Positions 11,967 through 31,610 of a stretch of DNA of 38,813 bases are shown here, one piece after another. Where the stretch lies: assembly GCA_902774015.1 (NCBI GenBank), contig CACYHB010000016.1:1-38813 (forward strand), read 5' to 3'. A model generated the notes under the pieces. It was not told the DNA's origin. It ran no database searches and saw only the letters and a program-made list of their open reading frames with translations. How positions within the stretch are numbered: position 1 is the first letter of the stretch; the number at the start of each line of letters is the position of its first letter. This stretch comes from Oscillospiraceae bacterium. GTDB taxonomy: Bacteria; Bacillota; Clostridia; Oscillospirales; Oscillospiraceae. The translations under genes were made by a program, and so were the position numbers.

Positions 11967-11991
11967 GATAAAAACAGCTGGAGGGCGTCAG

Positions 11992-14396: not shown

Positions 14397-15256
14397 ATTA
14401 TCTGGAACTTCTTCAAAAAAGCAGCGAAACCGCAGGCAATATCTTGTGCATGGGGCTGGATCCGGTGCCGGACGCGCTGCCCTATCCGGAAAAACCTGTA
14501 TCACGGAGAATCAGTGACTATTTTGAGGAACTGTTCGATGAAATGCTGAAAAGGAACCTGATTCCCGCAGCGTTCAAGCCGAACCTTGGCTATTATGCTG
14601 CGCTTGACCGTCCGCTGGACGGACAGTTCGATGGCTCACTGGCTCTTGCTCAGGTTCTGAAGATGCTGCGCGGTAAGTTTCCTGGTATTCCCGTCATTCT
14701 TGACGCCAAGCGTGGGGATATCGCGACAAGTTCAACCAACTACGCAAGGGAAGCGTTTGAAGCCTGGCATGCGGATTGCGTCACGGTCTCGCCTTACATG
14801 GGGACCGATAGTGTGATGCCGTTTGCTTTTGCTGATAAAGGCGTATACGTGCTAAACCGTACCTCGAATCCCGGCGGTGCAGATCTGCAGAATCTCCTTA
14901 TGGAAAATCAGGAACCGCTGTACATCACTGTTGCACGTACAATCGCGAAATGGCATAGGGAAAGCTCAGTCATCGGCGCAGTGGTGGGAGCCACGAATTT
15001 GAAGGAACTGGAGGATATCGCCGGGTATTTTGCTGACAAGGATATTCCGATGCTGATACCGGGCGTCGGCAGCCAGGGCGGTTCCGCACCGGAAGTTATG
15101 AAAAAACTCCGGAACACCGGATATCCGATCTGTCTGGCGCGTATCAACAGCTCCAGCGGTCTGACTCATCCCTGGAAGAAAGCCCCCGCACCGGATGATT
15201 ATCTGGAGCGGGTAATGACAAATCTGGCAAAACTGATAAAGGAGACATCTCTGTGA
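14393..15256 (+). CDS. pyrF: Orotidine 5'-phosphate decarboxylase
   Basis: This 287-residue enzyme makes UMP from OMP. The catalytic lysine-aspartate cluster DAKRGDIATSSTNYA (around 100-115) and the N-terminal CMGLDPVPDALPY, with length above 270, identify the subfamily 2 (bacterial long form). The phosphate-binding end is visible as MLIPGVGSQGG. I chose ATG 14393, which overlaps the pyrE stop and follows AAGGAGG, instead of an upstream in-frame start inside pyrE. Confidence 0.92.
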   Translation: MNYLELLQKSSETAGNILCMGLDPVPDALPYPEKPVSRRISDYFEELFDEMLKRNLIPAAFKPNLGYYAALDRPLDGQFDGSLALAQVLKMLRGKFPGIPVILDAKRGDIATSSTNYAREAFEAWHADCVTVSPYMGTDSVMPFAFADKGVYVLNRTSNPGGADLQNLLMENQEPLYITVARTIAKWHRESSVIGAVVGATNLKELEDIAGYFADKDIPMLIPGVGSQGGSAPEVMKKLRNTGYPICLARINSSSGLTHPWKKAPAPDDYLERVMTNLAKLIKETSL

Positions 15257-18497: not shown

Positions 18498-18666
18498 CTA
18501 CAAAAGCCTAAAACAGAGATGAACCCCCGATTCCAACATTTTTACCACATTTTTATTGAAAAAGTGCCTATTCGTATATACTTATTGGCATTATGAAAGT
18601 GTAAAAAGCCCTTATTTCCGGACTAAAAAATGCCCGTATATAGGGATTTGTCATTTTAAGGTTTTG
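18498..18666. other. AT-rich gap before the first tRNA half
   Basis: There is no gene. An imperfect hairpin, AAATGCCC with GGGATTT at about 18628-18649, could act as a terminator. The segment AAAAAGCCC at about 18604 resembles the sequence upstream of the tRNA half at 20919. Confidence 0.4.
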
Positions 18667-18711
18667 CTCCTAAGCGACAGGCCGGAGGTTCGAATCCCGC
18701 CGGGGAGGCCA
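18667..18711 (+). repeat. tRNA-Arg(CCU) 3'-half fragment A
   Basis: A 45-nt block begins at the anticodon loop CTCCTAA (anticodon CCT), continues through the TTCGAAT T-loop and ends in the acceptor 3' strand CGGGGAG, discriminator and CCA. No matching 5' half lies upstream, so it is not a functional tRNA gene. The T-stem is degenerate. Block A differs from block D at only five positions. A hairpin related to the one after block B follows. Confidence 0.75.
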
Positions 18712-18873
18712 AAATAGCCCATAAACACTACGTTTTTTGGCTTTTTTGTTTGCCTTCTCGTCGAACACAGGTAGAACATTCTGTATTACTAAAGCACTTA
18801 TTATTCATTTCTTGTTTACTCTATACACACTTCAAGAACTGCCTTCTGCGATAATATCGGTGCAATTTACCAC

Positions 18874-18904
18874 AAAAAACGCTCCCAGTCAGGGAGCGTT
18901 TTTG
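18874..18904. terminator. Bidirectional terminator downstream of pgi
   Basis: CGCTCCC (18880-18886) pairs with GGGAGCG (18892-18898), flanked by an A-run on the left and a T-run on the right. It can terminate pgi on the minus strand. Confidence 0.85.
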
Positions 18905-18951
18905 ATCGAAATCACCGGATTCGTGTTCCTTTTGTTTCGGCAGGGAACAGA

Positions 18952-20535
18952 TCAGATGGTCAGCAGTTCGCTGTAGGCCTTCAGTGCGCCATCCGTTTCG
19001 TGTGCCAGCACGCGTTTGGCCAGCACTTTGCCCAACTGCACGCCCTCCTGGTCGAAGCTGTTCACGTTCCAGCAGAAACCCTGGAACATCACCTTGTTCT
19101 CAAAATGCGCCAGCAGCGCGCCGAGGGATTCCGGCGTAAGCTGTTCACCGATAATGATGCTGGAGGGACGACCGCCTTCGAAGCTCTTGTTGGGGTCTTT
19201 ATCCTGTTTGCCGCAGGCAAAGGCCATGATCTGCGCGGCGACGTTGGCGCACAGCTTCTGCTGGCTGGTGCTGCCCTGAATGTCCGCATCCATTCCCGCC
19301 TGATTCTTACGGAAACCGACAAACTGCAGGGGAACGATATCCGTGCCCTGATGCAGGAGCTGATAGAACGAGTGCTGGCCGTTGGTGCCCGGTTCACCGA
19401 AAATGACAGGCCCGGTGGGATAAGCGACCGGCTCGCCGAAGCGGTTGACGTGCTTGCCGTTGGACTCCATGTCGAGCTGCTGCAGGTGCGCGGGGAAACG
19501 GCTGAGCGCTTGCGAATAGGGCAGCACGGCGGTGACCGGATAGCCCAGTACATTGCGCTCGTATACGCCGATCAGCGCGTCAAGCATAGAGGGATTCTTC
19601 AAAAGATCGCTCTCTTTTGCGGTCAGATCCGCCGCATGCGCACCGTTCAGAAAGCGTGCGAACACTTCAGGACCGAACGCCAGCGACAGGACAACGCCGC
19701 CGACACAGGAAGTGGAGGAATAGCGCCCACCAATGAAGTCGTCCATGAAAAACGCTGCCAGATACTCATCGGATTTTGCCAGCGGTGAAGTCTCGCTGGT
19801 GACGGCGACCATGTGCTTGGAGGGGTCCAGTCCCGCGTCTTTCAGCGCGTTCTTCACGAAGGTTTCGTTGGTCAGCGTTTCAAGCGTGGTGCCGGACTTC
19901 GAAACCAGCACGAACAGACTGTGCGGCAGGTCAATCGATTTCAACACGTTCGCTGCATCGTCGGGGTCCACGTTGCTTATAAAACGGGCTTCGAGCCGGA
20001 ATGCTCCGTTTTCTCTGGCCCAGTTCTCCAGCGCCAGATACATGGCGCGAGGACCCAGGTCGCTTCCGCCGATGCCGATCTGCACGACGGTCGTGAACTT
20101 CTCACCGTCGGCGTTGGCGATCTCTCCCGCATGGACCTTTTCGGCAAACTCCGCTGCTTTTTTCTGTTCGCCGGTATAGAATGCGTACTTGTCCACACCG
20201 TCCACGATCACGGCATCTCCCAGCTGGCCTCTTGTCAACTGGTGCAGCACCAGACGCTTTTCACCGGTGTTGATCATTTCGCCGTTGTACAGCGCGGCGT
20301 ACTTCTCCTCCAGCTGCGTCTCTCGGGCAAGCTCTTTCAGGATAGAGAGCAGTTCGTCGTCTACTGTCTTTGCGGCATAGTTGTAGGCAAGTCCGCAAGC
20401 CATCGGCACCGTGTACTTCGAGACACGTTGAGCACCGCTTTCTCCCGCCATCGCTTCCGGCAGATTTACGCTGCCTTTTTTCTCTTTCAGCTTTTCAAAA
20501 GCCTTCAGCGTATCGAGATTCTTCCAATGCAACAT
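18952..20535 (-). CDS. pgi: Glucose-6-phosphate isomerase
   Basis: The 527-residue enzyme interconverts glucose 6-phosphate and fructose 6-phosphate. Both family signatures are clear: VIFGEPGTNGQHSFYQLLHQ (central) and the C-terminal FDQEGVQLGK with the catalytic lysine. The phosphosugar-binding SIS elements GIGGSDLGPRA and VLVSKSGTTLET are also present. Length is that of the long form found in E. coli and many anaerobes. AAGGAGG precedes ATG on the minus strand. The gene stands alone, with a promoter and a terminator of its own, between two tRNA-Arg fragments. This is normally a core gene, so its position in a row of boundary-flanked modules is noteworthy. Confidence 0.95.
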   Translation of the reverse strand: MLHWKNLDTLKAFEKLKEKKGSVNLPEAMAGESGAQRVSKYTVPMACGLAYNYAAKTVDDELLSILKELARETQLEEKYAALYNGEMINTGEKRLVLHQLTRGQLGDAVIVDGVDKYAFYTGEQKKAAEFAEKVHAGEIANADGEKFTTVVQIGIGGSDLGPRAMYLALENWARENGAFRLEARFISNVDPDDAANVLKSIDLPHSLFVLVSKSGTTLETLTNETFVKNALKDAGLDPSKHMVAVTSETSPLAKSDEYLAAFFMDDFIGGRYSSTSCVGGVVLSLAFGPEVFARFLNGAHAADLTAKESDLLKNPSMLDALIGVYERNVLGYPVTAVLPYSQALSRFPAHLQQLDMESNGKHVNRFGEPVAYPTGPVIFGEPGTNGQHSFYQLLHQGTDIVPLQFVGFRKNQAGMDADIQGSTSQQKLCANVAAQIMAFACGKQDKDPNKSFEGGRPSSIIIGEQLTPESLGALLAHFENKVMFQGFCWNVNSFDQEGVQLGKVLAKRVLAHETDGALKAYSELLTI

Positions 20536-20660
20536 GGTTTCGTTTTCCTCCTTGAACCGGCATGAATTATTACAGTTTCTTCAGTGTGACAAGTACAGCA
20601 CGGCGGGGATCTCGTCCCAGCCTTCGGGCATTTCCGACGCTTCCTCACCCTGCCGGTAAA

Positions 20661-20689
20661 AGTTTACCATTTCAGCGTCGTTTTTTCAA
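20661..20689 (-). promoter_or_regulatory. Promoter of pgi
   Basis: On the minus strand, TTGAAA (20684-20689) and TAAACT (20661-20666) are separated by 17 bp. The pgi start is about 125 bp downstream. Confidence 0.65.
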
Positions 20690-20771
20690 TCCCGCCGAAA
20701 CCAAAATCGCCTTCCTCTTGGAGCGAACTTATAGCTTTTCTTGAGAGGGGCATTAGGACGAGATAAGCTTG

Positions 20772-20795
20772 GGCACAGATTTGACAACAGATATG
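20772..20795 (+). repeat. 24-bp direct repeat, copy 1
   Basis: The block begins GGCACAGATTTGACAAC and is identical to 21038-21061. The two copies lie 266 bp apart and bracket tRNA half B. Confidence 0.85.
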
Positions 20796-20918
20796 ACCAC
20801 ACAATGCTCGCCATATTTACTCACGTGTGCCAGCATTGCCACATATGGAATGCGAAAAAGCCCTACAATTGGGATTTTTCCCTAAAACCCCTAGCTTTTT
20901 TGAGGGTGTCTCCCTACG

Positions 20919-20963
20919 CTCCTAAGCGGAAGTTCGTGGGTTCGAATCCCGCCAGGGACGCCA
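20919..20963 (+). repeat. tRNA-Arg(CCU) 3'-half fragment B
   Basis: The 45-nt block has anticodon loop CTCCTAA, a well paired T-arm (GTGGG, TTCGAAT, CCCGC) and ends in CAGGGAC-G-CCA. Its first 35 nt are identical to fragment C. No 5' half is present. About 60 bp upstream (GGGATT..CCCTAAAACC..GGCTTTTT-like) is shared with fragment D. Confidence 0.8.
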
Positions 20964-20965
20964 AA

Positions 20966-20999
20966 AAAGCCTATAAACTCTACGTTTATGGGCTTTTTT
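20966..20999 (+). terminator. Terminator attached to tRNA half B
   Basis: AAAGCCTATAAAC (20966-20978) pairs with GTTTATGGGCTTT (20984-20996), followed by Ts. A diverged version of the same hairpin follows fragment A at about 18714-18747, showing that the duplicated unit includes the tRNA terminator. Confidence 0.85.
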
Positions 21000-21037
21000 A
21001 TGGTTGTTACATATTGAAGACTGTGGTCGGTTCCATA

Positions 21038-21061
21038 GGCACAGATTTGACAACAGATATG
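21038..21061 (+). repeat. 24-bp direct repeat, copy 2
   Basis: Identical to 20772-20795. It lies 13 bp before the -35 box of the ade promoter. Confidence 0.85.
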
Positions 21062-21074
21062 TAGAGTTTTTATA

Positions 21075-21102
21075 TTGACAAAAGGGCCATATCGTATATA
21101 AT
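21075..21102 (+). promoter_or_regulatory. Promoter of ade-purine permease operon
   Basis: TTGACA (21075-21080) and TATAAT (21097-21102), both consensus, have a 16-bp spacer. Confidence 0.85.
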
Positions 21103-21120
21103 ATGTATGTTCTCAGGCAA

Positions 21121-21157
21121 GCTTCTTTCTGAAACGTGGAAGAAGCCTTTTCATTTT
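21121..21157 (+). promoter_or_regulatory. Leader hairpin with T-rich tail upstream of ade
   Basis: GCTTCTT (21121-21127) pairs with AAGAAGC (21140-21146), then CTTTTCATTTTT. This can be a weak attenuator 20 bp before the ade start. I see no purine-riboswitch core in the short leader. Confidence 0.5.
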
Positions 21158-21175
21158 TAAAGGGGAGGTATCGGA

Positions 21176-22948
21176 ATGAGGACCAGAAAGGCAAAAGACA
21201 CCCGAAAGCTGATCCAGGCCGCCTTGGGGCAGATCCCCTGCGATCTGACGATCAGCAACATCCGGTTGCTCAACGTGTTTACCGGAGAGATCTATCCCGC
21301 CAGCGTAGACGTGCTGGATGGATTCGTCGTCCGTGTCCGTGAAGAGGGCGTCGAGGCCGCCGTGCCCGCCCGGGATCACTACGACGGGAAAGGCAACTAT
21401 CTCATCCCCGGCTTTATCGATGCTCACATGCACGTGGAGAGCACCATGATGATCCCCGAAAACCTGTCCCGCGCCATCCTGCCCTGGGGCACCACCACCA
21501 TCTGCACGGATCCCCATGAGATCGGCAACGTGATGGGCGTCGAAGGCGTCAAGTTCATGCTGGAGAATGCCAAAAAGTCCCGCCTTCGCCAGTATGTGCT
21601 GGCGCCGTCCTCCGTGCCTTCCGTGCCGGGCATTGAGACCACCGGCGCCGTGTTCCTCGCAAAGGAGGTAGGCGAGATCCTGGACATGGACGACGTGGTC
21701 GGCGTCGCCGAGATCATGGACTACGTGGGCGTGATCCAGTGCAGCGACCGTATGACCTCCATCATCGAGGAGGGCGTCAAGCGCGGCATGTTCCTGCAGG
21801 GCCACGCCCCCTTCGTCACCGGAGCCGCCCTGGCGGCCTACCGCATCGGCGGGCCGGTCTCCGATCACGAGTCGACCTGCGCCGCGGAAGTGACGGAGAA
21901 GCTCCGCAATGGCGTCCATATCAACCTGAGAGCCAGCTCCATCGTGGACAACCTCTCCTTCCTGGTGGACGGCTGCAAGGATCATCCCTGGCGGGATTTC
22001 GTTTCCTTCTGCACCGACGACGTCCACGCCTCCGATCTGCTGACCGTCGGCCATATCAACCGGGTCGTGGGGAAGGCCATCGAGGCGGGCATCGACGGCA
22101 AGGAGGCCATCAAGCTGGCCACTCTCAACGCCGCGCGGGAATACGGCTTCGACGACCTGGGCGCCATCGCCCCCGGATATATCGCCGACATGCAGCTGGT
22201 GCCGGAACTCAACGGTTGCCGTCCGGCGGCGGTGTTCGTGGAGGGAGAGCTGGCCGCCGAAAACGGCGTGTACGTGGGCGCAGATGCCTGGAAGAAGGAC
22301 GTGACGCTCCCCAACACCGTGAACATCCCCCAGATCACCGGCCCCGAATCCTTCGAGCTGCGGGTGCCTGAAGGGTATACCGGCAGTACCATCACGGTCA
22401 ACGTGCTGACGCCGCCCTTTGAGGGCGCCATCGTTCGCACCGCGATCCCCACCGAGCTGCCCGTGAAGGACGGCAAGGTCGATATCAGCGCCGATCCCAT
22501 GTTGGATTTCGTCTGCTGCGCCAATCGCTACGGCACCGGCACGAAGACCATCGCGGTCTACCGCAATTTCCACCTGGACAAGGGCGCCATCGCGTCCACC
22601 ATCTCCCATGACAGCCACAACCTCACGGTCATCTACCGTGACGAGCGGGAGGCCTGGCTGGCCGCCGACACCCTGCGCCGCTACGGCGGCGGCGTGTGCG
22701 CCGTGCTGGAGGGAGAGGAGTCCCATATCGCCCTGCCCGCGGCGGGGCTGATGAGCCTCAGCACCTGCGAGGAGGTGGCGGCCCAGATCGACGAGGTACA
22801 GGAGAAGATCAACAGGCTGAGCGGCAACAGGCTGCCGGTGCTCGCCTCCGCGATCCTGGCGCTGCCGGTTTTGCCCAGCGTCGTCATCACGGATCTGGGG
22901 CTGGTCGACGGCAGCAATCAGACCTTCATTCCTGTTTTCATACAATAA
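21176..22948 (+). CDS. ade: Adenine deaminase
   Basis: This 590-residue amidohydrolase-superfamily enzyme converts adenine to hypoxanthine and ammonia. Landmarks: the metal motif GFIDAHMHVESTMM, the GTTTICTDPHEIGNVMG block, VSDHEST, and FCTDDVHASDLL, followed by the long C-terminal region characteristic of Ade. GGGGAGG precedes ATG 21176. It is co-transcribed with a purine permease 21 bp downstream, a typical salvage pair. Downstream the ECF/SAM hydroxide adenosyltransferase module releases adenosine, so adenine salvage could connect the modules; this is inference. Confidence 0.95.
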   Translation: MRTRKAKDTRKLIQAALGQIPCDLTISNIRLLNVFTGEIYPASVDVLDGFVVRVREEGVEAAVPARDHYDGKGNYLIPGFIDAHMHVESTMMIPENLSRAILPWGTTTICTDPHEIGNVMGVEGVKFMLENAKKSRLRQYVLAPSSVPSVPGIETTGAVFLAKEVGEILDMDDVVGVAEIMDYVGVIQCSDRMTSIIEEGVKRGMFLQGHAPFVTGAALAAYRIGGPVSDHESTCAAEVTEKLRNGVHINLRASSIVDNLSFLVDGCKDHPWRDFVSFCTDDVHASDLLTVGHINRVVGKAIEAGIDGKEAIKLATLNAAREYGFDDLGAIAPGYIADMQLVPELNGCRPAAVFVEGELAAENGVYVGADAWKKDVTLPNTVNIPQITGPESFELRVPEGYTGSTITVNVLTPPFEGAIVRTAIPTELPVKDGKVDISADPMLDFVCCANRYGTGTKTIAVYRNFHLDKGAIASTISHDSHNLTVIYRDEREAWLAADTLRRYGGGVCAVLEGEESHIALPAAGLMSLSTCEEVAAQIDEVQEKINRLSGNRLPVLASAILALPVLPSVVITDLGLVDGSNQTFIPVFIQ

Positions 22949-22969
22949 TAAAAGGAGGGCAGTCATTTC

Positions 22970-24307
22970 ATGGAAAAACTGTTCAAACTCAAAGCCCGCG
23001 GCACGGATACCAGAACGGAGATCATCGCCGGTCTCACAACCTTCATGACCATGGCCTACGTGCTGGCCGTCCAGCCCTTCGCCATCTGCGGCGGGGCCCA
23101 GTCCATCACGGATGTGAACGGCGTGGAGATCACCAGGACCGCCATCATGGTCTCCTGCGCCCTGATCTCCGGCCTCATCACCCTGCTGATGGCCTTCTAC
23201 ACCAACTTCCCCTTCGCACTGTCCACGGGCATGGGCTCCAACTTCCTGCTGGGCGCCCTCATCCAGTCTCAGCAGCTGTCCTTCGGCGCTGCCATGGCCA
23301 TCACGCTGATCTCCGGCATCGTCTTCGTCCTGCTCACCGTCTTCGGCCTGCGGGATCTGATGGTCCGCATGATGCCCAAGAACATCAAGATCGCCATCTC
23401 CGCCTCCATCGGCTTCTTCATCGCTTACCTGGGCTTCAAGAATTCCGGCATCGCCGCCTTCGAGGGCGGTGTGGCCATGGGTGACATCACCAACCCCGCC
23501 GTGCTGCTCGCCATCTTCGGGCTGCTGCTCATGATCGCGCTGAACGCCCTCAACGTGAAGGGCGCCATCCTGATCTCCATTATCGTGACCACCGTCATCG
23601 GCATCCCGGTGGGCGTCACGTCCCTGCCCGCCGCCGTCGTGTCCGTGCCCAAGTTCTCCGACCTCGGCAACGTCATGTTCAATCTGGACTTCGCGGGGGC
23701 CTTCTCCGGCGGCAACATCGCCGCCGTCACCAGCGCCCTGATCCTGGTGTTCATCTGCTTCTTCGGCGACTTCTTCTCCACCCTCGGCACAGTGCTGGGC
23801 GTGGCGAGCCGCGCCGGCATGCTGGATGAGAACGGCAACTTGCCCGGCATCGAGCGGCCCTTCCTGGTGGACGCCATCGGCACCTGCGTGGGCGCCCTGA
23901 CCGGTAACACCACCATCACCACCTACGTGGAGTCCACCTCCGGCGTTGAAGCCGGCGGCCGCACCGGTCTCACGGCGGTCACCACCGGTCTCATGTTCCT
24001 GCTCACCGTGTTCCTGGCCCCCCTGTTCGTGATCATTCCCGACGCCGCCACCGGCCCCGCCCTGATCTACGTGGGCTTCCTGATGATCAAGGGCTTTGCG
24101 GACATCGACTTCTCCGACTACGCCGAGTGCATCGGCCCCTGCGTCATGCTGATGTTCACCACCTTCACCGGCTCCATCGCCGGTGGCATCGGCGCGGGCA
24201 TCATCGTGGACGTGCTGGTCAAGCTCCTCAAGGGCAAAGCCAAGCAGATCCATCCCGCCATGTATGTCCTGTGCGTGCTGATGGTCGTCTACTACATCTA
24301 CGGTTGA
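22970..24307 (+). CDS. NCS2-family purine permease (AdeP/PbuG type)
   Basis: The 445-residue integral membrane protein belongs to the AzgA-like branch of nucleobase transporters. It opens with the branch-typical TEIIAGLTTFMTMAYVLAVQP and contains ALSTGMGSNF, FFGDFFSTLGTVLGVA and TGNTTITTYVESTSGVEAGG. These motifs mark hypoxanthine, guanine or adenine proton symporters. About 12-14 membrane segments are visible. AAAGGAGGG precedes ATG. Pairing with ade points to adenine or hypoxanthine as substrate. Confidence 0.93.
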   Translation: MEKLFKLKARGTDTRTEIIAGLTTFMTMAYVLAVQPFAICGGAQSITDVNGVEITRTAIMVSCALISGLITLLMAFYTNFPFALSTGMGSNFLLGALIQSQQLSFGAAMAITLISGIVFVLLTVFGLRDLMVRMMPKNIKIAISASIGFFIAYLGFKNSGIAAFEGGVAMGDITNPAVLLAIFGLLLMIALNALNVKGAILISIIVTTVIGIPVGVTSLPAAVVSVPKFSDLGNVMFNLDFAGAFSGGNIAAVTSALILVFICFFGDFFSTLGTVLGVASRAGMLDENGNLPGIERPFLVDAIGTCVGALTGNTTITTYVESTSGVEAGGRTGLTAVTTGLMFLLTVFLAPLFVIIPDAATGPALIYVGFLMIKGFADIDFSDYAECIGPCVMLMFTTFTGSIAGGIGAGIIVDVLVKLLKGKAKQIHPAMYVLCVLMVVYYIYG

Positions 24308-24345
24308 TCCCCCGAAGCTCGACCCAGGGCCTGCTTAAACAACAA

Positions 24346-24383
24346 AAGGACGCCCCCGCAGCAGCGGGCGGGCGTCCTTCTTT
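24346..24383 (+). terminator. Terminator of the ade-permease operon
   Basis: AAGGACGCCC (24346-24355) pairs with GGGCGTCCTT (24370-24379), with extra pairing inside, followed by CTTTT. Confidence 0.9.
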
Positions 24384-24410
24384 TATATATCTTACGGATA
24401 AATCGTTAAC

Positions 24411-24445
24411 CTCCTAAGCGGAAGTTCGTGGGTTCGAATCCCGCC
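24411..24445 (+). repeat. tRNA-Arg(CCU) 3'-half fragment C, cut after the T-stem
   Basis: The 35-nt block is identical to the first 35 nt of fragment B. It then diverges: instead of an acceptor strand and CCA the sequence continues GGTTATCATG. The identity ends exactly at the end of the T-stem, which looks like a recombination cross-over point. Confidence 0.8.
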
Positions 24446-24493
24446 GGTTATCATGAAGAACGAAGCATGGAGGACGGTCCCAACGGTACGATC

Positions 24494-24549
24494 AAAAAGG
24501 CGATGCCTTCTGTCAGCTCTGTGAGCTGCTTTGAGGCAACGCCTTTTCT
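24494..24549. terminator. Terminator between convergent operons
   Basis: AAAAGGCG-a-TGCCT pairs with AGGCA-a-CGCCTTTT, with an inner CAGCTC..GAGCTG stem. Read on the minus strand it ends in a T-run and so terminates the ECF operon. Confidence 0.8.
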
Positions 24550-24574
24550 TTGCTGATGCAGGTTTCTCTTCGCC

Positions 24575-25132
24575 TTATTCCTTGGACAGGGTGCCCTTGC
24601 CGGAGCGGGTCTTGGAGTAGAGGAAGAGGAGGATGGTGCCGATGACGCCCATGGAGACGGCGTTCCAGAGGGCCGCCACGGCGCCCTGGGTGAACACCAG
24701 GTTGGAGGGCTCGCCATAGACCACGATGTCGAGGACGGGGGCCACCACGATCCAGGCCACCACGTTGGCGATGATCTGGAAGACATTGAAGACCAGGATG
24801 TCCTTCCAGCCGAAGACGCCTTCATCCACCTTCAGCCGGGGATAGGCCAGGCCTACGATGAAGCAGGAGATGCCGGAAGCCACCACCCAGCTCCACCAGG
24901 GGGAGCCGTACTGGACGGCGTCGGAGATGGCGTGGCCGATGAAGGCGATCAGGAAGCCTGCAATGGGGCCGAACAGAGCGGCGAAGAAGGCGCCGATGCC
25001 GTAGGCGGTCTGGACGTCCGTCTCGGGGATGCCGGTGGGGACCTTCACGTACATGAACAGCAACATGAACAGGGCGGCGCCGATGCCGGTGGCGACGATA
25101 GTCTTTGTCTTGAACTCAAACATTTTTTTCAT
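24575..25132 (-). CDS. ECF transporter S component, UPF0397 family
   Basis: The 185-residue membrane protein is the substrate-binding (S) subunit of an energy-coupling-factor importer. The UPF0397 pattern is clear: TIVATGIGAALFMLLFMYV at the N-terminus (the alanine-rich helix that docks on EcfT) and AFFAALFGPIAGFLIAFIGH followed by SPWWSWVVASGI. Five to six membrane helices are visible. Some members are annotated as riboflavin transporters, but the substrate is not settled. TAGGAGG precedes the start. It is the last gene of the minus-strand operon, downstream of the SAM hydroxide adenosyltransferase, a pairing seen in other genomes. Confidence 0.88.
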   Translation of the reverse strand: MKKMFEFKTKTIVATGIGAALFMLLFMYVKVPTGIPETDVQTAYGIGAFFAALFGPIAGFLIAFIGHAISDAVQYGSPWWSWVVASGISCFIVGLAYPRLKVDEGVFGWKDILVFNVFQIIANVVAWIVVAPVLDIVVYGEPSNLVFTQGAVAALWNAVSMGVIGTILLFLYSKTRSGKGTLSKE

Positions 25133-25187
25133 GGGAAGTACCTCCTATATAGGTATAGTATATAAAAACCACGGTTTGCGGTTTTTG

Positions 25188-26039
25188 TCAAGCTTTGGTC
25201 AGGTCTACGACCCAATCCGAGCCGAAGCCCATGCCGTATTGGTGGGCCAAGGACCCCTGGGTGACGGCCATGGCGATCTTCATGAGCTCGTTGTTATACA
25301 GCATGGGATCGCCCACCTGGGCAAACCCGAAGCTCTGGTGGAACAGCACGTCCTTTTCAAAGATTAGCTCCGTCCCATGGAACACCTTCGTATGGACCAT
25401 GTCCCCGTATCGGAACCCGGCCCGGTTGAAGGCCTCCAGGGGGATGTTGGTCCACAGGTTCCCGAAGTTGGGATCGTCGATCTCGAAGATGCCCCGGGCG
25501 TGTCCCGGTTCGACGGTGGACTCAGGGATGGGATGGCAGATGATCTCATCCACGGGGTAGGCAGGGCCTACACCCTCAAAGTCGATGATGCCGGAGGCGA
25601 GACGGGCCGCCGTGTAGCCGAACAGGTCCCGGCCGTGGAAGATGGCCACGCCCCGGGTGGACTGGAGCCGGTTCACTGTTTCGTCGATCTCCCTGACCTC
25701 CAAAATGCCGAATTCCTTCTTGATGTGTGTCAGGGCCCCGTTGTCCGGGGTGACCACGTAGTATCCGTTGGCGGTCTTCGCCACGCAGGCCCGGCGGGAG
25801 GTGCCCACTCCCGGGTCCACCACGGATACGTAGATGGTGCCCTTGGGCCAGAAGGGCAGGCTCTGGAGGAGCCGGTAGCTGGCCGACCAGGTGTCGTACT
25901 GAGGGATCTCATGGGTGCCGTCGAAGATCTCCAGCTCCCGGTCCACGGTCTTGACCACGCCGTACATGGCGCTGACCGCCCCCTCCTTGTAGGTGAAGTC
26001 CGTCTGGAAGACCAGAATGGGTTTGTCAAACATGCTCAT
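25188..26039 (-). CDS. SAM hydroxide adenosyltransferase (DUF62 family)
   Basis: The 283-residue protein belongs to the fluorinase/chlorinase-like DUF62 family. Members without the halide loop hydrolyse S-adenosylmethionine to adenosine and methionine using a D/R/H set. Candidate residues are the aspartate in VFQTDFT, the HGR of IFHGRDLF and the SVVDPGVGTSRR and VTPDNGAL motifs. No halogenase-type insertion is visible. It lies inside an ECF transporter operon, an association already noted for the family, although its reason is unknown. The protein probably acts in the cytosol. Substrate assignment follows the family and is not proven here. Confidence 0.88.
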   Translation of the reverse strand: MSMFDKPILVFQTDFTYKEGAVSAMYGVVKTVDRELEIFDGTHEIPQYDTWSASYRLLQSLPFWPKGTIYVSVVDPGVGTSRRACVAKTANGYYVVTPDNGALTHIKKEFGILEVREIDETVNRLQSTRGVAIFHGRDLFGYTAARLASGIIDFEGVGPAYPVDEIICHPIPESTVEPGHARGIFEIDDPNFGNLWTNIPLEAFNRAGFRYGDMVHTKVFHGTELIFEKDVLFHQSFGFAQVGDPMLYNNELMKIAMAVTQGSLAHQYGMGFGSDWVVDLTKA

Positions 26040-26050
26040 ATACTTTTCTC

Positions 26051-26887
26051 CTATATGGCGAACGGGTTCCAGTACCGTCCGTGATCTATGAATATCGATA
26101 CGGCCAGGGCCGCGAGGGCGATGACGGCGCAGACGGCGATGGCCGCGGCGTCGTTCTTTCCCAGGGGCTTGAAGGCGTACCAGGTGCGCTTCTTGTGCTT
26201 GCCGAAGCCCCTCAGGTCCATGGCGTTGCTGATGACCTCCACCCGGTCCAACGAGGAGAAGATCAGCGGCACGAAGATATTCATGATGTTCTTGAGCCGG
26301 GTGATGATGCGCTCCTTCTTGGAAAGGTCCAGACCCCGGGCCTGCTGGGCCAGGGCGATGTCGTTGTAGTCCCGGATCATGTCGGGGAAATACCGCAGCG
26401 TCAGGCTGAGGGCAAAGGAGGCCTTGTAGCTCACGCCCACGGCGCTCAGCGACGCCGCGAACTCGCTGGGGTTGGTGGTCAAGAGGAACATCATGCCCAG
26501 GGGGATGACGGAGAGGTACTTCGTGACCTTGGTCCCCTGGTAGAGGAGCTGCTCCGTCGTCAGGGTGTAGCGGTCCGTGATGGTGAACAGCTCGTGCTTC
26601 GCTCCGTAGAGCTCCACGCCGTACTGAGGACTGAAGAGGAAGGTCAGCACGAAGTTGATGGCGATGAACACCAGCACGTAATAGAGCATGATCTTGATCT
26701 GAGAAAACTTTATCTCAGAGAGATGCAGCACCCAGAAGGAGAAGACGAGGATCGCCAGGATCACCCGCACGTCGTAGGAGTACATGACCGTGAAGGTGAG
26801 GATGAGGAAGCAGAGGAGCTTGGTCATGCCCGACAGGTTGAAGACGAAGTTGTCCTTCTCGATGTAGTCAAACAGCTTAGCTTTCAC
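26051..26887 (-). CDS. ecfT: ECF transporter transmembrane component (EcfT)
   Basis: The 278-residue membrane protein couples the ATPases to the S component. It has an N-terminal membrane region (LLCFLILTFTVMYSYDVR) and the two cytosolic coupling helices with the A-R-G type motif: AQQARGLDLSKKERI and SNAMDLRGFGKHKKRTW. I chose GTG 26887, which follows GAGGAGG on the minus strand and overlaps the ATPase stop by 11 bp, instead of the longer frame to 26923 that would overlap the upstream gene by 47 bp. Confidence 0.88.
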   Translation of the reverse strand: MKAKLFDYIEKDNFVFNLSGMTKLLCFLILTFTVMYSYDVRVILAILVFSFWVLHLSEIKFSQIKIMLYYVLVFIAINFVLTFLFSPQYGVELYGAKHELFTITDRYTLTTEQLLYQGTKVTKYLSVIPLGMMFLLTTNPSEFAASLSAVGVSYKASFALSLTLRYFPDMIRDYNDIALAQQARGLDLSKKERIITRLKNIMNIFVPLIFSSLDRVEVISNAMDLRGFGKHKKRTWYAFKPLGKNDAAAIAVCAVIALAALAVSIFIDHGRYWNPFAI

Positions 26888-28589
26888 GGCGGGCCTCCTC
26901 GTGATCGATAAACTGCTGGACAAAGTTCTGAGGGTCGGGGAGCTCCGCCTTTTGCGCCAGCTCGTAGAGGCTGGTGAGCTTCAGGTTCGCCTGCTGGGCC
27001 ATGGTCTCGTCCGTCAGGATCGCCACGGCGCTGTCGTCACCGATCTTTCGCCCCCCCGCGATGACGATGGCGTGAGGGGTGTATTCCAGCATCAGGTGCA
27101 TGTCGTGGGTGATCATAAGGATGGTGATGCCCTGTTGGTTCAGCCCCCGCAAAAACTCCATGATGTCGGTGTAGTGACGATAGTCCTGGCCGGCGGTGGG
27201 TTCGTCCAGGATCAGGATCTGAGGGTCCATCACCAGCATGGACGCGATGGTCACCCGCTTCTTCTGACCAAAGGATAGAGCGGCCACGGGCCAGTTGCGC
27301 ATGGGGTACAGGCCGCATACGGTCAGGGCCTGCTCCACCTTTTTCCGTATCGCCGCCTCGTCCATGCCCCGGATGCGCAGGCCCAGGGCCACCTCGTCGA
27401 AGATCATGGGCTTGGAGATCATCTGGTTGGGATTCTGCATCACGTAGCCGATCTTCAGCGAGCGCTCCTTGATGGTCCAGTCCCGAATGTTCTGGCCCTC
27501 ATAGAGGATCTCTCCCGCGTCCTCGTGGACGAAGCCGCAGATGACCTTGGCAAGAGTGCTCTTCCCCGCTCCGTTGGTGCCCACGATGGACACCATCTCT
27601 CCGCGGCGGATGTCAAAGGAGATGTCCTGCAATATCTTACGCTTTTTCGTGTACTGGAAGCTCAGGTTACGGACGGAGAGCAGCACCTCCCCCAGAGGCT
27701 TCTCCGGGTGGGGCGGCTGGGCGGCGTACCAGCGGGCAAGGGGCTCCCGGACCCGGTGGACATCCAGGGTGCTGAGATACCCCGGCCCCATGTCGGGGGT
27801 CAGGGCCACGCCCGCGTATTTGAGCGCCGTCACGTACAGGGGCTCCCGGTTGCCCAGAGCGCGGAGGGTGTCGCCGCACACCAGCTCGTCGGGGGTGCTG
27901 TCGGAGACGATACGCCCCTCGCTGATGACCAGCACCCGATCCACGTGCCGGTACAGCACGTCCTCCATGCGGTGTTCGATGATGATGATGGTCTTATGAT
28001 ACTCCCGATGGATGCGGTCGATGAGGTCGATGGCGGTCTTGCCGGTAAGGGGATCCAGGTTGGCGAGGGGTTCGTCGAAAAGGAGCACGTCCACGTCGTC
28101 CACCATGACGCCCGCAAGGGCCGTCCGCTGCTTCTGGCCGCCGGAGAGCTCGAAAGGAGAGGAGGAGAGGAGGGTCCCCATGTCCACCATGTCCGCCACC
28201 CGCTGGACGGTGGCCTTCATCTCAGATTGGGCCACCCGGTCGTTCTCCAGGGAGAAGGCGATGTCCTCCCCCACGGTGAGGCCCACGAACTGGCCGTCGG
28301 AATCCTGCAGCACCGTGCCCACTTTCTTGGACCGCTCAAAGAGGCTGCTTTGTTCAGGAGCCTTCCCGTCCACCGTCAGGGAGCCCGTGATGGTGCCCTT
28401 GTAGGCATAGGGAATGAGGCCGTTGATGCAATGCCCGAGGGTGCTCTTGCCAGACCCGGAGGGCCCCACGATCAGGACCTTTTCCCCGGGGTAGATGTTC
28501 AGATCCACATCCAGCAGCGTGGGCTCCTTCTGGCTGAAGTATTGAAAGCTGAAATTATGAAAGGAAATGATGGGCTCGCTGGTCGGCAT
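26877..28589 (-). CDS. ECF transporter ATPase with two fused ABC domains
   Basis: The 570-residue protein contains two complete ABC domains (about 8-240 and 300-535), equivalent to EcfA and EcfA', as in YkoD. Domain 1: Walker A GPSGSGKST, signature ELSGGQKQR, Walker B VLLFDEPLANLD. Domain 2: Walker A GTNGAGKST, signature LSFGQKKR, Walker B ILILDEPTAGQD. One polypeptide therefore supplies both ATP sites. It is the first gene of a four-gene minus-strand operon (ATPase, EcfT, DUF62, S component). The dedicated S component suggests a group I ECF system. Confidence 0.92.
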   Translation of the reverse strand: MPTSEPIISFHNFSFQYFSQKEPTLLDVDLNIYPGEKVLIVGPSGSGKSTLGHCINGLIPYAYKGTITGSLTVDGKAPEQSSLFERSKKVGTVLQDSDGQFVGLTVGEDIAFSLENDRVAQSEMKATVQRVADMVDMGTLLSSSPFELSGGQKQRTALAGVMVDDVDVLLFDEPLANLDPLTGKTAIDLIDRIHREYHKTIIIIEHRMEDVLYRHVDRVLVISEGRIVSDSTPDELVCGDTLRALGNREPLYVTALKYAGVALTPDMGPGYLSTLDVHRVREPLARWYAAQPPHPEKPLGEVLLSVRNLSFQYTKKRKILQDISFDIRRGEMVSIVGTNGAGKSTLAKVICGFVHEDAGEILYEGQNIRDWTIKERSLKIGYVMQNPNQMISKPMIFDEVALGLRIRGMDEAAIRKKVEQALTVCGLYPMRNWPVAALSFGQKKRVTIASMLVMDPQILILDEPTAGQDYRHYTDIMEFLRGLNQQGITILMITHDMHLMLEYTPHAIVIAGGRKIGDDSAVAILTDETMAQQANLKLTSLYELAQKAELPDPQNFVQQFIDHEEARRES

Positions 28590-28675
28590 ATCTTCTCCCG
28601 GTCGATCTTCATGAGAGTATCACAGATGGCAACCGACAGGATCGTTCCGTTTTGGCAGGCGTCTGCTTGGTTTTT

Positions 28676-28704
28676 AGCCTATCATGGCCGGGTGGGTTTG
28701 TCAA
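28676..28704 (-). promoter_or_regulatory. Promoter of the ECF-DUF62 operon
   Basis: On the minus strand, TTGACA (28699-28704) and TAGGCT (28676-28681) are separated by 17 bp, about 87 bp before the ATPase start. I see no riboswitch in the short leader. Confidence 0.65.
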
Positions 28705-28933
28705 CCGAAGGGACGCGGCGTCCGCGGTCCTGTTTCTGAGCTGCGAACGGACCTCCTTCATCACCGGTGCTGTCCTCGACGTGAACGACGGTGCATGGGT
28801 AGGTTGATCTCCTTTTCCTGCCCCATTGGCCAGCGAATTACCCGCTGGCTTTTAAGATGGAGAACAGTCGATAATGGAAGCCAACAACAGGGATTCCCTA
28901 AAACCTATGGCTTTTTGACGCATTCTCCATACA

Positions 28934-28978
28934 CTCCTAAGCGGGAGGCCGTGGGTTCGAATCCCACCGGGGAGGCCA
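28934..28978 (+). repeat. tRNA-Arg(CCU) 3'-half fragment D
   Basis: This is the best preserved fragment: anticodon loop CTCCTAA, fully paired T-arm (GTGGG, TTCGAAT, CCCAC), acceptor strand CGGGGAG, discriminator G and CCA. No 5' half, D-arm or acceptor 5' strand lies upstream. About 60 bp upstream resembles the sequence before fragment B. Confidence 0.82.
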
Positions 28979-28984
28979 AAAAAC

Positions 28985-29018
28985 AAAGACCCCTGCATGG
29001 GGGGTCTTTCACTTTTTT
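28985..29018 (+). terminator. Terminator attached to tRNA half D
   Basis: AAAGACCCC (28985-28993) pairs with GGGGTCTTT (29001-29009), followed by CACTTTTTT. The sequence then reads AAGGGATTCGAAC, as it does after the similar hairpin at 31218. Confidence 0.85.
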
Positions 29019-29147
29019 ATTCTAAGGGATTCGAACAGGTGCGGCAGTGAACATGGCCCCGATGGGGCCAAGGAACCGAACCAAAGACCTCGCTATCCTT
29101 TGCGAGGGCATTCGCCATTTAAATACCACTCTTCTGCGTATTCCTCA

Positions 29148-29183
29148 GAACAGGTTGAAAATGGCCTGTTCGCCTGATATATT
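29148..29183 (+). promoter_or_regulatory. Promoter of the alcohol dehydrogenase operon with an overlapping palindrome
   Basis: TTGAAA (29155-29160) and TATATT (29178-29183) have a 17-bp spacer. GAACAGG (29148-29154) and CCTGTTC (29165-29171) form a palindrome with 10-bp centre that encloses the -35 box. This is a well placed site for a repressor. No regulator gene is adjacent. Confidence 0.65.
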
Positions 29184-29250
29184 TTTTTATATCCCTCAAG
29201 CGCGGCGGCTGCTGAGCAAAGGGGATAATAGCCCAAGGGAGGTATCATCT

Positions 29251-30420
29251 ATGCTCAATTACGTTCACGCCATCCCCACAAAAGTGTATTTCGGCGAAGG
29301 CCAGATACAGCGCCTCCCGGAAGCCCTCGCAACCTTTGGAAAGCGGGTCCTGCTTGCCTACGGCGGCGGGTCCATCAAGCGCGTCGGCCTCTACGACACG
29401 ATCATGGCGCTGCTGCACGAGGGCGGATTTACTGTGACGGAGCTTTCCGGCATCGAACCCAATCCTCGGATCGAATCGGTGGCGGAAGGCGTGCGCCTGT
29501 GCAAGGAGAATCATATCGACGTGGTCCTGGCGGTGGGCGGAGGCAGTACCATCGACTGCGCTAAGGCCATCGCCTGCGGCGTGCTGTACGAGGGGGACGA
29601 TCTTTGGCAAATGATCGCCACCATCCCCGGTCGCAAGAAAGCTCTGCCCCTGGTGGACATCCTTACCCTCAGCGCCACCGGGTCCGAATTCGATGGCGTC
29701 GGCGTCATTAGCAACATGAAGCTGAATGAAAAGCTGGGCACCGGCCTCACGTACCCTGCGGTCTCCATCTGTGACCCCACCTACACCTTCACCGTGTCCC
29801 CCTATCAGACGGCGGCCGGATCTGCGGACATCATGAGCCATATCTTCGAGGGGTATTTTTCCAGAGAGGACGACTGTGAGCTGTCCGACGGCATCGCGGA
29901 GACGATCCTGAAAACCGTGATGAAGTATACGCCCATCGCGTTGCAGGACCCCGAAAACTACAGTGCTCGGGCCAATCTTATGTCCTGCTCCTCTGTGGCC
30001 TGCTCCGGCATCCCGGAATACGGCAAGGAGAGTACCGGCTGGCCCTGCCACGCCATGGAGCATGAGCTGTCCGCCTTCTACGACATCACCCACGGCGTGG
30101 GCCTCGCCATCCTGACGCCCCGCTGGATGCGCTTCATTCTGAAGAAAGACCCCACGGCCCTGCCCCGCTTCGTCCGGTTCGCCAAAAACGTCATGGGCCT
30201 GACCGGTGAGGACGAGAACGCCCTGGCGCAGGAGGCCATCGACAAGCTGGAAGCCTACTTCAGGTCTACCGGTATCCCCATGACGCTCCGAGAACTGAAC
30301 ATTGATGAAGAGCACTTTGCGGTCATGGCTGCTCACGCTAATTTAAACGATCGTCTTGCTCATGCTTTTGTTCCCTTGACCAATGACGACATCGTGAACA
30401 TTTATCGTGCCTGCCTTTAA
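29251..30420 (+). CDS. Iron-containing alcohol dehydrogenase (BDH type)
   Basis: The 389-residue cytosolic enzyme belongs to the group III iron-dependent alcohol dehydrogenases related to NADPH-dependent butanol dehydrogenases (YugK/BdhA). It has the NAD(P) motif AVGGGSTIDCAKAIACG and the metal-binding histidines in SADIMSHIFEGYF and HAMEHELSAFYDITHGVGLA. I chose ATG 29251, eight bases after AAGGGAGG, discarding a long upstream extension through the promoter. It reduces aldehydes or oxidises alcohols, probably in fermentation. It is followed after 26 bp by an SDR oxidoreductase. Confidence 0.93.
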   Translation: MLNYVHAIPTKVYFGEGQIQRLPEALATFGKRVLLAYGGGSIKRVGLYDTIMALLHEGGFTVTELSGIEPNPRIESVAEGVRLCKENHIDVVLAVGGGSTIDCAKAIACGVLYEGDDLWQMIATIPGRKKALPLVDILTLSATGSEFDGVGVISNMKLNEKLGTGLTYPAVSICDPTYTFTVSPYQTAAGSADIMSHIFEGYFSREDDCELSDGIAETILKTVMKYTPIALQDPENYSARANLMSCSSVACSGIPEYGKESTGWPCHAMEHELSAFYDITHGVGLAILTPRWMRFILKKDPTALPRFVRFAKNVMGLTGEDENALAQEAIDKLEAYFRSTGIPMTLRELNIDEEHFAVMAAHANLNDRLAHAFVPLTNDDIVNIYRACL

Positions 30421-30446
30421 AACAGTATTTGAAAGGAAGATACATC

Positions 30447-31163
30447 ATGCCTCAAACCGTTTTGATCACCGGTACTGGTCGATCGTATGCTCTGGGCTTC
30501 AACCTTGTAAAGCGATATCTGGAGCACGGTGACACCGTGTTCGCCAGCATCCGCCGCCCGTCGGAAGCGCTGGAGGAGCTTCAAAAGGAATACCCCCATA
30601 CCCTGCACATCCTGACTATGGACATCGCCTCCACGGAATCCGTGAACGCCGCGGCGAAGGAGGCGGAGAAGATGACGGACGCCCTGGATCTGATCATCAA
30701 CAACGCCACGATCGCCTCCGAGGACACCATGAAGGAGCTGCCGGACTTTGACTTGGATCTCATCGCGCCCGCTGTGAACGTGGGAGCGGTCGGCCCCATC
30801 CGGGTGTTGAAGGCTTTCCTGCCGCTGCTCAAAAAGAGCAAGATCGGCGCGTTGGTGGCGAACATCTCTTCCGAGGCGGGCAGCATCGGGAGATGCTATC
30901 GCACCTATTATCTGGACTATGCTACGGAAAAAGCTGCCCTCAACATGCTCACCATGACCATGCGCAACTATTTCAAGGACGATCCCAATCTGAACATCCT
31001 GTGCATCCATCCCGGCTGGATACGTACCAACCCGGATAATTCGGAAGCGCCCCTGGACCCCTATGAGCACGCCGAGACCCTTCGCCTGCTGTTTGAAACC
31101 AAACGGTATGATAAAGAAGGCCCCGTTTTCATCACGTATACTGGCGAGCCCTATCCCTGGTGA
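30447..31163 (+). CDS. Short-chain dehydrogenase/reductase
   Basis: The 238-residue Rossmann-fold oxidoreductase has the cofactor-binding glycine motif in LITGTGRSYALG, the NNA motif (IINNAT), and the active-site YxxxK in DYATEKAALN, with ISSEAGS upstream. The glycine motif is slightly atypical (TGTGRSYALG). ATG 30447 follows AAAGGAAG; the frame extends six codons further without a better start. The gene is probably co-transcribed with the alcohol dehydrogenase. Both may serve one redox pathway, but the substrate cannot be told from sequence. Confidence 0.88.
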   Translation: MPQTVLITGTGRSYALGFNLVKRYLEHGDTVFASIRRPSEALEELQKEYPHTLHILTMDIASTESVNAAAKEAEKMTDALDLIINNATIASEDTMKELPDFDLDLIAPAVNVGAVGPIRVLKAFLPLLKKSKIGALVANISSEAGSIGRCYRTYYLDYATEKAALNMLTMTMRNYFKDDPNLNILCIHPGWIRTNPDNSEAPLDPYEHAETLRLLFETKRYDKEGPVFITYTGEPYPW

Positions 31164-31208
31164 TACGGGAGACGGAATCTATAAGGATCATCTGCGGTTA
31201 GCATTTCT

Positions 31209-31290
31209 TGCCAAAGCGAAAGACTTCCATCGGGGGTCTTTCGTTTTACTCTTTTTCAAAGGGATTCGAACCGGGGTCGGTCCCCCAACA
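31209..31290 (+). repeat. Degenerate fifth boundary: terminator and flank like that after tRNA half D
   Basis: GCCAAA, then the hairpin GAAAGACTTCC (31218-31228) with GGGGGTCTTTC (31232-31242), T-rich bases and AAGGGATTCGAAC reproduce the order seen after fragment D (28976-29038). The tRNA half itself has been lost or changed beyond recognition. The hairpin can terminate the alcohol dehydrogenase operon. Confidence 0.6.
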
Positions 31291-31348: not shown

Positions 31349-31372
31349 ATGAACAATCAAATATAGAAAAGC

Positions 31373-31541
31373 AGTCGGTGCCTTTGCTCCGGAAGGGGCA
31401 GGGGGTAAAAGGGAAACAGGTGCAAGGCCTGTGCGATCTCGTCACTGTATGCGGAAAAGTCCGTCGGGCGTCGTTGGCGCGGCCACTGGGAGACCGGGAA
31501 GGCGATGGGCGAAGGGCCGCGAGCCAGGAAACCTGCCGATT
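31373..31541 (+). promoter_or_regulatory. Cobalamin riboswitch
   Basis: Diagnostic elements appear in order: P1 arms AGTCGG and CCGATT, GGTGCC, the GGGTAAAAGGGAA core with GGTGCAAGGCC, GTCACTGTA, GCCACTGGGA..CCGGGAAGGC, and the B12 box GAGCCAGGAAACCTGCC. Adenosylcobalamin binding normally lowers expression of the downstream genes, which here are cobalamin-related. Confidence 0.95.
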
Positions 31542-31610
31542 GTGGGGTACGGGAAAAGTCGGTTTTCCAGATCACGAGGGATTGATCGTGTACCATGCTC
31601 CCCTTGGGGC

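Follow-up and report, generated by a model that had tools for sequence, protein, structure and literature searches.

Tandem 3' halves of tRNA-Arg(CCU) genes between metabolic operons: probable attachment-site cores in uncultured Clostridia

Integrons gather cassettes into an array between short sites; the recombinase lies outside the cassette, the cassette sites are attC hairpins, and intI stands next to attI. Among the nearest tandem systems are the ssrA islands of Dehalococcoides, which stand in tandem downstream of one tRNA-like gene, are flanked by direct repeats of its 3' end and carry metabolic cargo (15 without an integration module and 16 with a module and a serine recombinase; PMC3146451). 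The cis-mobilizable elements (CIMEs) of Streptococcus salivarius have kept their attachment (att) sites, have no recombination genes left and are stacked at one target gene; they are detectable only beside integrative and conjugative elements (ICEs) or integrative and mobilizable elements (IMEs), and are regarded as decayed (PMC7563491). Additive flexible genomic islands in Methylophilaceae (PMC10872708) and 'Ca. Actinomarinales' (PMC7771536) hold cassettes at tRNA genes with direct repeats of part of the tRNA, and transfer between genera has been described for the latter (PMC7771536). The tycheposons of Prochlorococcus, as summarized in PMC10872708, are tRNA-associated, carry nutrient genes, measure 4-200 kb and have a tyrosine recombinase in their description. 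Here we analyse a row of four 3' halves of tRNA-Arg(CCU) genes that lie between metabolic operons on a contig of 38,813 nt. This entire contig (C16), which we call the window, is filed in an 88-contig metagenome-assembled genome (MAG) of an Oscillospiraceae bacterium, G000 (completeness 94%, contamination 5.9%).

With a probability of roughly 0.8, we propose that these blocks are tRNA-derived att-site cores of integrative elements that stand in tandem and have the anticodon loop of tRNA-Arg(CCU) as their target. The shared features support the view that such arrays are an integrase-free variant of the known tandem islands targeted to tRNA or transfer-messenger RNA (tmRNA) genes. Like the Dehalococcoides ssrA islands, they are tandem, have 3'-end repeats of the target gene and carry metabolic cargo; unlike them, they have no recombinase in the scanned cassettes, they use the anticodon loop of tRNA-Arg(CCU), and they have arms of the tyrosine-integrase type. 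As in CIMEs, att sites are kept and what was scanned holds no recombination or transfer genes; unlike the CIMEs of S. salivarius, rows of several integrase-free cassettes stand alone here. The integrase plus relaxase or phage genes that would mark an ICE, IME or prophage were not found in the arrays and proteins scanned, and no array-borne ICE was seen. The repeats of the Methylophilaceae islands are 20 nt long, and an arm anatomy such as the one found here is not described for either group of additive islands in the available parts of those papers. The arrays resemble tycheposons as tRNA-associated cargo elements with nutrient genes, but the arrays scanned have no tyrosine recombinase at the tRNA end, which belongs to the tycheposon definition as given in PMC10872708. 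Finally, the arrays are integron-like in that cassettes are lined up between short sites and the recombinase would lie outside the cassette, but these sites are tRNA halves with flanking arms and probably not attC hairpins, the cassettes are operon-sized, and neither a platform integrase nor, in the arrays scanned, a tyrosine recombinase was seen. Relative to the nearest systems, the new features are the lack of a recombinase in any scanned cassette and the attP-like arms at many junctions. Among the papers listed by our searches, none describes this arrangement in gut or rumen bacteria, which is not proof of its absence.

An earlier note on this DNA, made from the letters alone, had described four 45-nt blocks at 18667, 20919, 24411 and 28934, all in one orientation, starting at the anticodon loop and lacking a 5' half. 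The starts, the shared forward orientation and the lack of 5' halves are as the note had them, and the blocks are indeed 3' halves of tRNA-Arg(CCU). The length holds for three of them, which reach CCA; the block at 24411 matches over 35 nt only and continues with GGTTATCATG, without an acceptor end, as the note's wording ("to, or near, the CCA end") had allowed. The cores and their arms in the window are as follows.

18536..18553, forward strand: left arm repeat ACATTTTTACCACATTTT, an exact match about 125 nt before core 1; the same offset recurs at other cores
18667..18711, forward strand: core 1, a tRNA-Arg(CCU) 3' half from the anticodon loop to CCA, with a left arm only, attR-like, directly before pgi
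18712..18748, forward strand: terminator-like stretch (judged by eye) after the CCA of core 1
20772..20801, forward strand: left arm repeats of core 2, TGACAACA and TGACCACA, at a spacing of 12 nt
20919..20963, forward strand: core 2, a tRNA-Arg(CCU) 3' half with CCA and with arms on both sides
21038..21061, forward strand: right arm repeat of core 2, a 24-nt copy identical to 20772-20795
24411..24445, forward strand: core 3, the truncated half of 35 nt, identical to core 2 over this length; no arm found
28934..28978, forward strand: core 4, a tRNA-Arg(CCU) 3' half with CCA; no arm found; the junction is also present in G192:C97

Terminator-like ends, again judged by eye, follow cores 1, 2 and 4, and core 1 with its terminator-like stretch is repeated at 20918-20999 (84% identity over 82 nt). 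A run of ARAGORN detected no tRNA on the contig. Set beside intact genes of relatives, the halves resemble them from the 7-nt anticodon loop CTCCTAA onward; immediately ahead of this loop the tRNA has C, and 27 of 31 halves have another base. The reversed core pattern has no match in 99 genomes, G000 included. Because of this, and because relatives hold such halves in ordered rows, we judge that the blocks exceed what chance would produce.

With up to two mismatches, the core was found in 14 of the 103 genomes of the family of G141 (two of these, G148 and G237, have only an intact tRNA of other sequence). Intact tRNA-Arg(CCU) genes whose 3' half ends in CCCGCCGGGGAGGCCA are present on G187:C13, G189:C39, G190:C4 and G192:C8 (genome and contig); this ending is the same in core 1 and nearly the same in cores 2 and 4. 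On G187:C13, the intact gene at 39577 is followed by same-strand halves at 34037, 20526 and 12177, or three halves over 27 kb. On G190:C4, the intact gene at 137698 is followed by same-strand halves at 146418 and 182763, or two halves over 45 kb. Thus, copies of the 3' part of the target gene mark element ends, as in tandem tRNA-targeted islands, and an intact target gene heads the row in these two genomes; the window contig has no tRNA. These rows, with the arms described below, support the serial integration (accretion) at tRNA-Arg(CCU) that the earlier note had suggested. Its narrower idea of a single tRNA-Arg locus was not borne out: besides the window contig without a tRNA, G192 has a second intact tRNA-Arg(CCU) on C3 in addition to that on C8, with a right arm at each, and G187 has a second one on C34 in addition to that on C13.

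The halves might instead be leftovers of local duplication of the tRNA gene, which the note had named as speaking against integration; at three loci (L192, L193 and L238) a 5' half is indeed followed by a second full tRNA-Arg(CCU). But none of the 31 halves is preceded by a 5' half in the 40 nt upstream, and unrelated operons and arm repeats lie between them; we regard this explanation as very improbable indeed. More generally, a complete tRNA-Arg(CCU) of another sequence lies no more than about 150 nt behind a 5' half or core start at L192 (6481-6557), L193 (3157-3233), L238 (1540-1616), L256 (1459-1646) and L214 (1365-1552). These loci look as if an element had broken the gene and supplied its own tRNA, for which tRNA-dependent lysogeny (PMC10865867) offers a comparison.

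Arm repeats were surveyed at 40 cores (9 intact tRNAs and 31 halves) in 23 stretches of 563,193 nt in all, 22 of them with a core. The motif list had eight variants, mostly T(G/T)ACNNCA and often paired 11-12 nt apart, and arms were counted from -180 to -60 on the left and from +45 to +200 on the right. On the array strand, 53 of 81 matches adjoin cores. Twenty of the 31 halves have a left arm, which lies at -121 to -125 in 17 of them, and 12 have a right arm, mostly at +111 to +133; both arms are present in 10 halves and neither in 9. Intact tRNAs have no left arm (0 of 9) and mostly a right arm (6 of 9). In G187 and G189, whose intact tRNAs have no right-arm match, a hairpin element directly follows CCA and an arm-like repeat follows the hairpin; at the intact tRNA of G140:C13 no arm was found. 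For the halves within 2 kb before pgi (in G190, G141, G185, G188, G140 and, as core 1, the window), the counts are 6 of 6 with a left arm and 0 of 6 with a right arm. In the window, core 1 is armed on the left only and core 2 on both sides; at cores 3 and 4 no arm was found. Because the intact tRNAs are right-armed only and the halves before pgi are left-armed only, the pattern, as read from the sequences, is the one that tyrosine integrases are expected to produce, with attL, element-element junctions and attR. Most halves (28 of 31) include the T-arm part, which is missing or interrupted in three, and 21 of 31 reach CCA.

Two integrases beside other tRNA genes served as yardsticks. In G142 (L149), three TTGACAACA repeats lie between the integrase gene and an intact tRNA-Met. 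In G184, a genome with arrays, an integrase (L234; domains Phage_integrase, Phage_int_M and SAM_3) next to tRNA-Arg(CCG) ends on TTTTGACTGCA repeats, which also form the right arm of several array cassettes; these shared repeats suggest the type of enzyme that may act on the arrays. Arms of class A read TTTACCACATTTT. The ACATTTTTACCACATTTT class has 16 matches, with at most one mismatch, in 9 of 16 genomes, none of them on a contig with a PF00589 match in a scan of all but G186.

Contrary to the fixed module order without junction variation that the earlier note had named as evidence against integration, relatives have the same cassettes with different neighbours, and several homologies end at a core. 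For example, positions 371-14860 of G141:C4 match 189-14677 of G191:C40 at 99.6%; this 14.5-kb segment spans two cores, and both copies begin one base before a core. A segment of G141:C4 (10996-16361) matches one of G187:C13 at 99.3%, and a cassette common to G190 and G184:C42 starts one base ahead of the core (95.6% along the chain). Another cassette is common to G184:C32, G191:C71 and G140:C95 as far as the core, and the sequences diverge beyond it. The arrangement of core 3 and the following cassette for an energy-coupling factor (ECF) transporter exists in other genomes too, because G191:C93 matches the window at 20999-24765 (99.8%) and G192:C97 matches it at 24181-29327 (98.3%); the core 3 junction recurs in both, with a slightly different tail in G192:C97. 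With L050 and L053 the window has only pgi and its near flank in common, the match with L050 stopping at about 20789, inside the left arm repeats of core 2; L051 also matches along the stretch that leads up to core 1, and separate cores are present in L052 (G141). Over all pairs, the shared segments have 83 interior ends. Of these, 17 come within 60 nt of a core in one genome or both, and 10 do so in both, where 2.1 and 0.014 would be expected if ends were random and overlapping pairs independent. Single elements therefore vary in their neighbours with exact junctions, as in tandem islands; no empty site was seen.

In two pairs of genomes the cassettes are far more alike than a chromosomal locus, that of Xer: 99.4% versus 82.8% in G187/G191, and 99.9% over 8,924 nt versus 83.4% in G188/G191. 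The contigs G188:C42 and G191:C40 are short, so that a binning error is possible for them. More broadly, the variation at junctions might be an artefact of assembling or binning short-read MAGs at repeats, as the window contig, which appears to be mis-binned (see below), and nine contigs that end less than 500 nt from a core might suggest. But junctions recur across assemblies (the 14.5-kb segment of G141 and G191; core 3 in G191, G192 and the window), and the tRNA and its halves are on a single contig in G187 and in G190, which makes this a quite improbable account.

Exchange could also proceed now solely by homologous recombination between repeated cores and their flanks, with the halves as relics of old integrations. 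This would fit the scanned arrays, which have no tyrosine integrase and no remnant of one, the 9 of 31 halves that are armless, and the ordinary divergence of the cassettes of G184 and G190. But homologous recombination does not need arms, and most halves keep them at fixed offsets in the order attL, junction, attR; in addition, 10 of 83 breakpoints fall within 60 nt of a core of just 45 nt in both genomes. As the sole route we find it unlikely, and it may add to the shuffling.

The modules of the window have the contents that the earlier note gave them:

18952..20535, reverse strand: pgi, phosphoglucose isomerase (PF00342)
21176..22948, forward strand: adenine deaminase (PF13382, PF01979)
22970..24307, forward strand: xanthine/uracil-type permease (PF00860)
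24575..28589, reverse strand: ECF cassette of four genes
24575-25132, reverse strand: ECF riboflavin-type S component
25188-26039, reverse strand: S-adenosylmethionine (SAM) hydroxide adenosyltransferase (formerly DUF62)
26051-26923, reverse strand: CbiQ
26877-28589, reverse strand: double ABC ATPase
29017..29080, strand not assigned: stretch like the hairpin mini-element described below (AAGGGATTCGAAC...), behind core 4
29047..31163, forward strand: module of iron alcohol dehydrogenase and short-chain dehydrogenase
29047-30420, forward strand: open reading frame (ORF) of the iron alcohol dehydrogenase, with the Pfam domain starting at residue 77
30429-31163, forward strand: short-chain dehydrogenase
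31228..31274, strand not assigned: second copy of the stretch 28996-29039 (85-87% in matches of 20 and 23 nt), where the dehydrogenase module ends

The listed start of the alcohol dehydrogenase is probably too early, because its domain begins only at residue 77.

We scanned 50 proteins of the array stretches, which are part of the ORFs and include two past the last half of G187. Seven match no family; the others are metabolic or regulatory, and neither they nor the window proteins scanned include a phage or conjugation/transfer family. The cargo includes beta-mannosidase with a major facilitator superfamily transporter and an AraC regulator, TctABC transporters, malonate decarboxylase, peptidase M20, ornithine cyclodeaminase with a sigma-54 system, Fe hydrogenase, lactate racemase, malic enzyme, thiamine pyrophosphate enzymes and phosphoglycerate kinase. 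The core-to-core cassettes number 16, counting some that recur in a second genome. None of the 15 scanned for a tyrosine recombinase (PF00589; all but that of G186) has one, and none of the 13 scanned for a serine recombinase (PF00239; all but the window's three) has one. A tblastn search of all stretches with 22 integrase ORFs, a query set without Xer-like and some other integrases, found no remnant (best E value 0.028).

The "loss of the integrases" in the earlier note is thus unproven: the scanned arrays show neither an integrase nor a detectable remnant, which fits both movement in trans and cassettes whose own gene was lost. Each cassette may have begun as a full prophage, ICE or IME whose integrase and transfer genes disappeared later, which is how streptococcal CIMEs are defined (PMC7563491), and the same genomes carry integrase genes beside other tRNAs. 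The missing remnants in the tblastn search and the lack of phage and conjugation families among the proteins scanned speak against such decay, and we consider it possible and somewhat doubtful. We hold just as tentatively the idea of an integron-like exchange in uncultured gut Clostridia. In it, cassettes that never had an integrase, with tRNA-Arg(CCU) half-sites and two-sided arms, would be cut out, made circular and inserted by an integrase working in trans, within a cross-species pool of catabolic operons that even pgi, a central gene of glycolysis, could enter.

A conserved tyrosine recombinase (L217-L224) was set aside as the cassette enzyme: it looks, by eye, like a housekeeping Xer and has no arm repeats nearby. 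A viral origin was set aside after two scans of viral contigs for the exact core pattern gave no match. Separately, an integrase gene adjoins tRNA-Leu(CAA) in G141, G189, G184, G187 and G191 (L146, L226, L228, L229 and L230, respectively), and the loci of G141 and G187 are 98% identical over 1.9 kb.

For serial integration we infer an integrase, circular intermediates, a crossover point and a transfer route, as follows. A tyrosine integrase would insert a circular cassette at the tRNA or at a half already in place, with strand exchange within the anticodon loop (we assume an overlap of 7 nt). The exchange would rebuild the tRNA at the left and leave a 3' half at the right end, and repeated rounds would give tRNA, cassette, half, cassette, half. 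Each internal half would close one cassette on its right and open the next on its left, and because it joins the two it would resemble a complete attP. Since the cassettes hold metabolic operons and no integrase was found, the enzyme may be encoded elsewhere, or in a visiting element, and act in trans, with cassettes moving between species; the absence of integrase remnants makes action in trans plausible. Serial integration accounts for the halves and the direction in which they point, for the arms, for the intact gene that leads the row and for the exactness of the breakpoints.

If so, the exact junctions point to a possible route for the gain and exchange of whole metabolic operons in uncultured gut bacteria, as ready-made units stacked behind one kind of tRNA gene, with half-genes that look like docking sites. 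If the cassettes are moved in trans, this route for building metabolic arrays would stand between integrons and autonomous islands. The signature of half-site and arms (the core, about -125 and about +112) is a simple rule for finding such arrays elsewhere. A caution for users of MAGs is that contigs of these arrays often stop at a core and may be placed in the wrong bin.

Several points weigh against reading the halves as att-site cores of integrative elements. No integrase has been tied to these sites, and no circular form was seen. The arm motif list was drawn up after inspecting junctions, so that the arm counts are descriptive rather than blind, and halves common to several genomes were counted repeatedly. 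There is no left-arm match at 11 of the 31 halves, including cores 3 and 4 of the window; two of the 11 (G187 20526 and G184:C33 26414) show a looser match. Most ends of shared segments (66 of 83) are away from cores, many of them from the pgi segment and others 276-706 nt before a core. The close pair G184/G190 has no excess similarity of cassettes (94.4-95.6%, versus 95.7% for the chromosome). All the genomes are MAGs, with the contig ends and the mis-binning mentioned above, and some differences in order may be assembly or binning errors. On G184:C38 a serine recombinase lies 12 kb upstream of the contig's half, outside the core-to-core cassettes, and could possibly be linked to the array; G190:C2 and G187:C41 have serine recombinase matches of similar length and score. 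Our confidence is also slightly lowered by the involvement of more than one tRNA-Arg(CCU) gene and by a chromosomal comparison that covers one locus.

The place of pgi is ambiguous. It lies no more than 2 kb past the last arm-bearing half in six stretches (those listed above for the left-armed halves), which makes it doubtful as pure cassette cargo; it may be an old chromosomal flank rather than cargo. In the window and in G186, a further left arm and core lie beyond pgi. In G141:C4, CTCCTAAGAGGCCA stands at 20044, 3.7 kb past the last full core and where the homology to G190 ends; it is perhaps a collapsed core with both core ends joined.

The window contig probably does not belong to G000 and fits a group of related Clostridia, G141 and G184-G192 (defined by a joint family search and, in eight of them, G184, G185 and G187-G192, by a Xer locus that is 82-96% identical). 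We say so because of the misfit of the tRNA-Arg(CCU) stem and because of protein matches, which are close in G187 and G191 for one protein and distant in the genus of G000 for another. G000's own tRNA-Arg(CCU) has a GCCCACG acceptor stem, which is incompatible with the window blocks and rules it out as their parent; with up to three mismatches, the core search of G000 gave nothing beyond the four blocks and two intact tRNA genes. For the PyrBI-like protein of the window, identity is 94% to a protein of G187, 91% to one of G191 and at most 39% in the remaining genomes that had a match (10 of 21 genomes matched). For adenine deaminase, 13 of 101 members of the genus, including G000, have a match at E values up to 1e-60, and identity in the other 12 is at most 37%. 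In a scan that listed at least 80 pgi loci, the nearest relatives of pgi among the matches listed were L050-L053 (95-98%), in MAGs labelled Oscillospiraceae, Clostridiales or Clostridia, two of which are named after water-buffalo rumen and goat omasum.

One MAG of G000's genus has a lone tRNA-Arg(CCU) 3' half of this type (L025, on G038:C125), and upstream of it stands a repeat resembling GCATTTTGACTG. This could be another mis-binned contig or a sign of wider spread of such halves.

A hairpin mini-element that starts with GGGATTCGA lies directly behind tRNA 3' ends, with seven distinct matches listed, two in one locus. Its sites are L206, L214, L215, L216, L051, the window (29017-29080 and 31228-31274) and L160 in G000. 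In several copies the terminal TCGAATCCC leads into a repeat of the tRNA 3' end, such as TCGAATCCCGCCGGGGAGGCCA in L206 and L216; in L051 the mini-element splits the core itself.

The window also contains a pyrimidine cluster at 12106-17867 (a fused PyrB-PyrI protein, orotidine monophosphate decarboxylase, dihydroorotate dehydrogenase and an amidohydrolase), which is present in G187 (85% DNA identity) and G191 (76%) on stretches without a core. The sole Rfam match in the window is a cobalamin riboswitch at 31359-31554, upstream of a cluster of CbiK, a FecCD-type transporter and CobD.

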